Source: Thermoproteota archaeon
Lineage (GTDB): Archaea; Thermoproteota; Thermoprotei_A; EX4484-217-1
Assembly (NCBI GenBank): GCA_029258915.1
Contig: JAPDJU010000008.1
Span: 1-64,000 of the forward strand
Direction of reading: 5' to 3'
Length of the DNA stretch: 64,000 nt
Part shown: positions 26,198 through 35,702 of the stretch, one piece after another
Layout of the letters: every line of letters starts with the position of its first letter
Numbering within the stretch: the first letter of the stretch is position 1
Program-made: the position numbers and the translations under genes
The notes under the pieces: model-generated
What the model was told of the DNA's origin: nothing
Seen by the model: the letters and a program-made list of their open reading frames with translations, nothing else
Database searches by the model: none

Positions 26198-26707
26198 CTA
26201 CCTTTCTCCCGGGAGGTCTCGCCGCTTGGCAATGTGTGAGTTTACTATCTTGAATACTTCATTAATGCTCCTTCTTCTATGGGCTTTGGAGCTTAGGTTA
26301 GATAGTGTATAGGTTTTGGAGATAAGTTCTTTTAGTTTAGAGACGTTCTTGTGTAAACCCTTGTGTAATGTGAGGACTATATTTCTAAAGATTAGATATG
26401 CTTCTTTCTTAACATGTAGGAGGTTTTGATACTTGTCAAGGAATGGGATTAGTTTCTCTACAAGTTCGTTCATGTTATCTACTATATAGACATGTAAGTG
26501 TCTTTGACCAGGCTTCTCTATTATCCTTCCTGCACCTATAGCTCTTCTAATAAGCTCTAACACATCCCTTCTCGCTTGTGTAATGCTAAATACTGGGTCA
26601 AGCCTTACTCCGTAAGTAAGGTCTTTCTGTACCTTTATGCTTACTGAAAAGCATCCTTCAGCATCAATGAACCCTATTATGTAACCGGTAACTAACATGT
26701 ACTCCAA
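26198..26707 (-). CDS. LAGLIDADG homing endonuclease of the 23S intron
   Basis: A 169-residue protein with one clear LAGLIDADG motif (YIIGFIDAEGCFS), so it probably works as a homodimer. The ATG at 26707 or 26698 may serve as start. The frame runs past the intron's 3' end: the last arginine codon uses two exon bases and the stop TAG is the TAG inside the exon sequence GGTAGCC. The full product can therefore be made only from unspliced RNA. Confidence 0.87.
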   Translation of the reverse strand: MEYMLVTGYIIGFIDAEGCFSVSIKVQKDLTYGVRLDPVFSITQARRDVLELIRRAIGAGRIIEKPGQRHLHVYIVDNMNELVEKLIPFLDKYQNLLHVKKEAYLIFRNIVLTLHKGLHKNVSKLKELISKTYTLSNLSSKAHRRRSINEVFKIVNSHIAKRRDLPGER

Positions 26708-29154: not shown

Positions 29155-29520
29155 GAGGTCAGGTTCGACCTAACCCCTTATCGGAGCTAGGCCTCACCTA
29201 ACCCCCGCTCGGGTGGAGCGACGGGCGGTGTGTACAAGGAGCAGGGACGTATTCACCGCGCGATGATGACGCGCGGTTACTAGGGATTCCGCGTTCACGA
29301 GGGCGAGTTGCAGCCCTCGATCCCAACTGAGGCGGGGTTTAAGGGATTGCCTTCCCCTTTCGGGGTCGGCTCCCGCTGTCCCCGCCATTGTAGCCCGCGT
29401 GTAGCCCGGGGGTTTCGGGGCATGCTGACCTGCCGTGGCCCCCTCCTTCCTCCGCCTTACACGGCGGCAGTCCCCCCAGTGTGCCCCGATCCCGTAGGAT
29501 CGGGTAGCAACTGGGGGCGG

Positions 29521-29719: not shown

Positions 29720-30411
29720 TCTGCCGGGCCAGGGCCGGGCGAATCTATTGAAGGAGTAATTGTTTTAACCTACGAAGCTTACATGGGTGCCTAAAACCTA
29801 TGATTTCGGCGAATCTGATTAGAGCTTCCTTTGACGACATCCTTAGCCTCCATACATTGTCATTACCGAGATATATTCCTGAGGACTTTATTCCTAGGTA
29901 TTCAAGAGTTTTCTTTATGAATTCTAATGGTTCTCTGATTCCCTGAGACATATCTATTTGGATGCCCTTATTCGACCTTATAATGCTACCCTCCGCGTCA
30001 ACGAACCCTCTTATATATTCCAACTGTAGATCTATTGGTGCGTTCTTAATGGGCTCTGGTGTTGGCCATGGTAGTCGCTTCTTTGAACCTTTTCCTAGTG
30101 GATGACCGAATTCGCTCACTATGATTTCATAGAGTTTCTTAGAGCTTATTCTTACCCTGTATTGCCTCGGCTTGTACATATACGGATTACATTTGGATAT
30201 GCCAAGCTTGTGTAGCTTTCGGCAGATCACTCTTTTTAGATATGCTTTATTGCTGGAATACCAGATAATATAATAGTTCCTCGTTTCCTCGTACTTGTAT
30301 ACTGAACCGTCTCTTAGAGCACCTATTAGATAATATAATGCTTTTTCGTATGTCACATGCTCCACCCATTAATATTTAAGATAAGCTTTAAAATTGCCCG
30401 ACCCGCTGGCC
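29720..30411 (-). mobile_element. Archaeal intron in 16S rRNA with LAGLIDADG gene
   Basis: Deleting these bases rejoins GGCTGAAA to CTTAAAGG and recreates the conserved sequence around E. coli position 908, a known intron site in hyperthermophilic Crenarchaeota. The intron ends pair (GGCCAG at the 5' end with CTGGCC near the 3' end), as required for bulge-helix-bulge splicing. The endonuclease gene occupies most of it. Ends may shift by one or two bases. Confidence 0.88.
29745..30365 (-). CDS. LAGLIDADG homing endonuclease of the 16S intron (I-DmoI-like)
   Basis: A 206-residue protein with two LAGLIDADG motifs, YLIGALRDGSV (about residue 12) and YIRGFVDAEGSI (about residue 113), so it should act as a monomer, as I-DmoI does. 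It cleaves intronless alleles to spread its intron (family knowledge). The frame is fully inside the intron. Base composition is AT-rich compared with the surrounding rRNA, as expected for an inserted element. Confidence 0.92.
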   Translation of the reverse strand: MEHVTYEKALYYLIGALRDGSVYKYEETRNYYIIWYSSNKAYLKRVICRKLHKLGISKCNPYMYKPRQYRVRISSKKLYEIIVSEFGHPLGKGSKKRLPWPTPEPIKNAPIDLQLEYIRGFVDAEGSIIRSNKGIQIDMSQGIREPLEFIKKTLEYLGIKSSGIYLGNDNVWRLRMSSKEALIRFAEIIGFRHPCKLRRLKQLLLQ

Positions 30412-30549
30412 TTTCAGCCTTGCGGCCGTACTCCCCAGGCGGCGGGCTTAACGGCTTCCCTGCGGCACTGGACGGGCTCAAGGCCCGTCCAACACCTAGC
30501 CCGCATCGTTTACAGCCGGGACTACCCGGGTATCTAATCCGGTTTGCTC

Positions 30550-35451: not shown

Positions 35452-35539
35452 GCGGGGGTGCCCGAGCTAGGACAAAGGGGTCGGGCTCAGGCCCCGATGG
35501 CGTAGGCCTGCGTGGGTTCAAATCCCACCCCCCGCACCA
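35452..35539 (+). tRNA. tRNA-Leu (CAG)
   Basis: A class II tRNA without intron. The acceptor GCGGGGG pairs with CCCCCGC, the anticodon stem TCGGG/CCCGA encloses CTCAGGC with anticodon CAG at 35488-35490, a long variable arm follows, and discriminator A (35536) and CCA (35537-35539) are encoded. Two candidate guide RNAs follow within 20 and 105 bases on the same strand. Confidence 0.96.
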
Positions 35540-35557
35540 CTATTAGTCTCCTCGAAA

Positions 35558-35627
35558 GCACACTGCCTGACGATGGGCGGGCTTACCTGAAAGGGGATGA
35601 AGAACCATTGTAGCGAAGGCAGTGTGC
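35558..35627 (+). ncRNA. Candidate C/D-type guide RNA with long terminal stem, 16S-directed
   Basis: A perfect 10-base terminal stem, GCACACTGCC (35558-35567) and GGCAGTGTGC (35618-35627), encloses 50 bases with the order C-like TGACGA, D' CTGA (35587-35590), C'-like ATGAAGA and D-like CGAA. The ten bases ending one base before D' (35576-35585) are complementary to 16S rRNA (identical to plus-strand 30441-30450). The ten bases 35605-35614 in the second guide position are complementary to 16S at 29385-29394. Both guide matches sit next to D-type boxes, as required for 2'-O-methylation guides. Boxes C and D are degenerate and such a long stem is unusual. It follows tRNA-Leu by 18 bases. Confidence 0.6.
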
Positions 35628-35641
35628 CGGGAAGGAGAAGG

Positions 35642-35702
35642 TAAAAGTGATGAACAGCGGATAATATGAGCTAAGCTATGATTAGGTATAGAAGCTGATT
35701 TA
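35642..35702 (+). ncRNA. Candidate C/D box guide RNA
   Basis: In order: a short stem base TAAA, perfect C box GTGATGA (35647-35653), D'-like ATGA (35666-35669), C' ATGATTA (35678-35684), perfect D box CTGA (35695-35698) and the closing TTTA. Guide spaces are 12 and 10 bases. I found no convincing match to the rRNA in this window, so a target could be a tRNA elsewhere. It ends just before the convergent transglutaminase gene. Confidence 0.45.

Follow-up and report, generated by a model that had tools for sequence, protein, structure and literature searches.

Archaeal box C/D sRNAs, such as the sR families of Sulfolobus, are the closest described relatives of the RNA reported here, and their N+5 rule, box consensus and terminal stem role have been set out previously (PMC7994747). 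The nucleotide at the center of this analysis, C1402 of 16S rRNA, is listed as ribose methylated in bacteria, eukaryotes, and Pyrococcus abyssi, the modification depending on the protein RsmI in bacteria and on a C/D snoRNP in eukaryotes (PMC11542601). RsmI (m4Cm1402) acts on the same nucleotide as that predicted below but is a protein enzyme, whereas the U43-type snoRNAs (Cm1639 in yeast, Cm1703 in human, and Cm1645 in Arabidopsis) are C/D RNAs whose target is the equivalent 18S nucleotide. Cm1369 of P. abyssi, the C1402 equivalent, provides a likeness in the methylated site (PMC11542601).

The locus lies in a 64,000-nt stretch of a Thermoproteota archaeon genome (hereafter the window), where a conserved hairpin spans positions 35551 to 35631 of the forward strand, as delimited by a covariance model. 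It shares with archaeal box C/D sRNAs the guide-D'-C'-guide order, N+5 placement, and 16S targets, and its relatives include canonical examples. In contrast to those RNAs, the hairpin has no terminal C/D kink-turn, being closed by a 4-bp helix that a 3-nt bulge separates from a long helix; its D' box is degenerate, and it matches no Rfam family, the nearest model being sR3 (RF01133). Scanning the full window against Rfam returned only rRNAs and tRNAs, and a low-threshold scan of the locus gave no C/D-family match to 35551 to 35631 even at an E value of 10, with a weak C/D match to the hairpin's neighbor. The hairpin-closed form is thus not in Rfam and is a variant of known box C/D guides, while canonical members of the family may already have been described under sR names. 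We propose, with a probability of about 0.72, that the hairpin is a box C/D-derived 16S guide RNA whose D'/C' motif directs methylation of C1402 and whose second guide makes a second contact with 16S rRNA.

The hairpin is a real feature. It begins with a basal helix (5' arm CTCG, 35551 to 35554; 3' arm CGGG, 35628 to 35631), followed by a 5' bulge, AAA (35555 to 35557), and a main closing stem of 11 bp with the arms GCACACTGCCT (35558 to 35568) and AGGCAGTGTGC (35617 to 35627), the latter sitting where relatives carry box D. The perfect 10-bp stem reported in the initial annotation is therefore borne out, reaching 11 bp once the adjacent U-A pair is counted, with four further pairs beyond the bulge. 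The predicted fold has a minimum free energy of -31.0 kcal/mol (z = -4.6), equaled by none of 200 shuffled sequences. Across ten hairpin-type genomes, 13 of 15 stem pairs were altered on both sides with 98.5% of cells paired, compared to at most 49.5% pairing in slid controls; within the basal helix, three of the four pairs had changed on both sides and all cells (100%) were paired. The closing stem is evolutionarily maintained through compensatory changes.

A DNA search showed that the upstream tRNA-Leu, the hairpin, and a second small RNA are all conserved in one genome of the same genus (G001) and one of the same family (G002). More distant copies were retrieved with a covariance model built from three sequences (G000 to G002), and a pattern of the conserved core, run against 229 genomes of the class, found the RNA in 59 of them; it also occurs in Bathyarchaeota. 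Family loci occur in Desulfurococcales, Sulfolobales, Ignisphaera, Marsarchaeota, and Bathyarchaeota. In relatives, guide 1 is followed by D', which reads CTGA in 37 of the 45 members compared, and then by C' (RTGANGA) and guide 2; those from Sulfolobaceae-like genomes are ordinary box C/D sRNAs. One of these, G210, reads C UGAUGA, CCGAUGGGCGGC, UUGA, AUA, AUGAUGA, UCCAUUGUAGCA, and CUGA, and matches Rfam sR3 (RF01133) at 27.4 bits (E = 4e-4), which is under the gathering threshold. The hairpin shares its guides, their order, and their spacing with G210, with G026, and with members of families f4, f12, f13, and f14, demonstrating common descent.

Families f1, f2, f3, f5, and f6 are of the hairpin type: above a 4-bp helix and a 3-nt bulge on the 5' side, usually AAA, 7 to 12 bp lead directly into the guides. 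In f4 the stems are long, for the most part lack the bulge, and come with a GAUG motif, and members of f12 and f16 have the bulge together, in most cases, with the GAUG motif. Given these stem lengths across the hairpin types, f4, f12, and f16, long stems characterize a large part of the family. The initial annotation had seen in the long stem a possible variant architecture; the stem is indeed long, but this is not peculiar to the locus. As a separate observation, the bulge between the 4-bp and the longer helix reads AAA, AGA, ATA, AAT, or TGA in f1, f2, f3, f5, f6, f12, and f16.

Guide 1, CGAUGGGCGG (that is, CGATGGGCGG; 35571 to 35580), forms 10 pairs, one of them U-G, with 16S positions 1399 to 1408 (CCGCCCGUCG; 29219 to 29228 on the reverse strand), numbered by mapping to E. 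coli 16S rRNA. G35577 lies opposite C1402 (window position 29225) and is the fifth base upstream of the degenerate D' box CTTA (35582 to 35585). The search pattern fixed GGGCGG, C', and CYATTGYAG but constrained neither what precedes GGGCGG nor where D' falls; even so, GAY preceding GGGCGG pairs with 16S 1405 to 1407 in all 45 members compared, in which D' begins exactly one base past GGGCGG. The GAY pairing and the D' spacing together place C1402 at N+5. Moreover, a GAU-to-GAC change in guide 1 breaks self-pairing (C-A) yet keeps pairing with G1405, indicating rRNA as the partner. Two 10-nt matches to 23S rRNA inside the element (25543 and 27761) were discounted, as the conserved core of the guide fits 16S 1399 to 1408 with N+5 placement in all members. 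The genome encodes fibrillarin, and RsmI was not found in it, since its sole TP_methylase is a diphthine synthase. Judged from these pairings and spacings, the RNA likely directs methylation of C1402.

Guide 2, CCATTGTAGC (35605 to 35614), forms 10 pairs with 16S 1233 to 1242 (GCUACAAUGG; 29385 to 29394 on the reverse strand), with T35611 opposite A1236 (window position 29391). Three Marsarchaeota genomes and one Bathyarchaeote have 16S GCUGCAAU (G1236), matched by a U-to-C change in guide 2 (CCAUUGCAG), and 16S GCUACAAU (A1236) is matched by CCAUUGUAG, the U/A combination, in 19 of 22 genomes. The comparison does not extend to families f5 and f6 or to genomes G001 and G002, in whose assemblies no 16S was found. 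The change at 1236 occurs in two separate lineages, implying at least two changes, with counts that ignore shared descent. Because the covarying position lies outside the CGAYGG/CCAUUG self-pairing, the covariation is with rRNA, and on this comparative evidence guide 2 does pair with 16S 1233 to 1242. The N+5 rule as applied to box D fits A1236 only in relatives possessing a canonical box D, and methylation of A1236 in the window's lineage is doubtful.

In the three genomes of genus g72 (family f13), guide 2 has a C against A1236 of 16S rRNA. Two of their loci (L135 and L136, in G182 and G184) keep CCAUUGCAG although the 16S carries A1236, and their D box is otherwise canonical; the mismatch falls exactly on the base predicted for modification.

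The C' box ATGAAGA (35597 to 35603) is retained, conforming to the RTGANGA found family-wide as the search pattern demanded, and the D' box, although degenerate (CTTA in the window and CTAG in G002), stands at the exact family position. Neither box C nor box D of a terminal kink-turn was found in f1, f2, f3, f5, or f6, where helix occupies their place. On the sequence comparison, the terminal C and D boxes are lost in the window's lineage, not merely degenerate. With the terminal boxes gone and D' degenerate, the window RNA is best described as a remodeled box C/D guide. In several members with a D' other than CUGA (in f1, f2, f5, and f16), the spacer from D' to C' contains CC and GG runs complementary to each other, which, from their sequence, could form a kink-turn with its own stem instead of a kink-loop.

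The initial annotation had proposed a long-stemmed, two-target 16S guide with degenerate boxes in C/D-like order, an idea that holds up against the relatives except for one target and the assignment of the boxes. Both exact 10-mers antisense to 16S rRNA are present. The second (35605 to 35614 against 29385 to 29394) is the conserved guide 2 described above, but the first (35576 to 35585 against 30441 to 30450, E. coli 871 to 880) is not shared outside the genus and was rejected, its would-be D' box CTGA (35587 to 35590) being absent from G001 and G002. The decoding-site nucleotide C1402 takes the place of this site near E. coli position 874. Likewise, the sequences suggested as boxes C (TGACGA) and D (CGAA) are not kept as such in relatives, and the covariance search then suggested recovered conservation of the stem and guide 2 but not of a guide at 35576 to 35585.

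Several other readings were weighed. That the stem and the matches to a GC-rich rRNA arose by chance and have no function can be practically dismissed. A single 10-nt 16S match occurs in approximately 8% of shuffles, and the 30441 match is of that kind; with single matches so common, sequence alone could not tell the real ones, and the argument that two matches are improbable by chance holds for the pair (two nonoverlapping 16S-antisense 10-mers per 70-mer in 0.24% of dinucleotide shuffles and in 13 of 3,288 background 70-mers) but not for a single match (8 to 9%). The compensated stem pairs refute the chance reading, against which the conservation of the RNA in many families and the guide-target covariation also stand. 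It is very improbable that the hairpin is a box H/ACA pseudouridine guide, in which the long stem would contain a GA/GA kink-turn and the AAA bulge would provide the pocket. The internal loop GA/UAGCGA of G000 to G002 could give tandem G-A pairs between two helices, and archaeal H/ACA RNAs resemble the element in being hairpins with an internal G-A motif; however, no rRNA uridine fits the pocket in a scan against 16S and 23S rRNA, the GA/GA motif is not shared with f2, f5, and f6, and the homologues are C/D RNAs; the two are not related by descent.

We also regard as improbable, if less so, a fully working double-guide C/D sRNA with very degenerate terminal boxes that methylates both C1402 and A1236. 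Many f4 relatives do have degenerate terminal motifs (GAUG.../...UAA or ACAA) on long stems, but in the window most of the stretch corresponding to box D (AAGG, 35616 to 35619) is within helix, and of a GAUG box C there remains only GA ahead of CGAU. A more serious, though still unlikely, alternative is that a former methylation guide is now purely an rRNA chaperone, which would pair with 16S 1233 to 1242 and 1399 to 1408 at once and help to fold or join the head and the decoding region without methylating either. In G000, G001, and G002, where D' and the two terminal boxes have decayed, both guides are kept to the letter, and guide 2 still covaries with 16S rRNA in Marsarchaeota family f3, which is without box D. 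A pure chaperone, however, would not need the retained C' and exact spacing from guide 1 to D', nor the perfect D' CUGA with C' RUGAUGA that the related f3 and f6 hairpins keep, all of which counts against it.

Under the preferred reading, methylation of C1402 guided from D'/C', we infer transcription, RNP assembly, and methylation as follows. A tRNA-Leu/sRNA precursor would probably be processed to an RNA of approximately 80 nt, in which the closing helix would enclose both antisense segments, with one D'/C' kink motif between them. This motif would be the binding site of L7Ae, Nop5, and fibrillarin; guide 1 would pair with 16S 1399 to 1408, bringing C1402 opposite the fifth base from D', and fibrillarin would methylate its ribose. 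Guide 2, pairing with 16S 1233 to 1242, would direct methylation of A1236 in relatives having box D, and since box D is gone in the window's lineage, it is there probably a second anchor or an rRNA-folding contact. Opposing this reading are the g72 guides, in which CAG against A1236 leaves a mismatch at the base for modification. In addition, with D' as CTTA or CTAG and no terminal boxes, the RNP may fail to assemble or be inactive. A bolder version, which we hold tentatively and as somewhat less than an even bet, is an inside-out class of guide in which a lone internal D'/C' motif, in a hairpin with a conserved bulged helix and no terminal C/D kink-turn, directs fibrillarin to C1402 and guide 2 anchors a distant 16S segment. 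If true, it would contradict the rule by which a terminal motif is required in archaeal C/D RNPs.

A tRNA-Leu(CAG) gene (35452 to 35539, forward strand) lies 11 nt upstream of the hairpin and is probably cotranscribed with it, an arrangement shared with archaeal C/D dicistrons (PMC7994747); G001, G002, and G006 likewise have a tRNA-Leu ahead of the hairpin. Just downstream is the second small RNA (35645 to 35699, forward strand), with a C box, GTGATGA (35647 to 35653), and a D box, CTGA (35695 to 35698). Its guide, CAGCGGATAA, is conserved beside the hairpin in many relatives; in G006 it is on the other strand. This guide yielded no convincing rRNA target, its sole other exact genomic match falls in a stretch without tRNA genes, and the RNA is an orphan guide. 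The rRNA genes of the window have features of their own. The 16S gene has an insertion of approximately 650 nt after E. coli position 900 (29720 to 30421, reverse strand) with a 206-amino-acid open reading frame (29745 to 30365) that shows weak similarity to intein-containing proteins; a second, smaller insertion (approximately 43 nt) follows position 908. The 23S gene contains a 169-amino-acid open reading frame (26198 to 26707, reverse strand), probably of the intron homing-endonuclease type.

In sum, this family is a candidate RNA-guided route to C1402 across Thermoproteota and some Bathyarchaeota. In its hairpin-closed members, the terminal protein-binding motif has been lost while selection still maintains the guides and a long stem, and whether one internal motif is sufficient for guided methylation thereby becomes testable.
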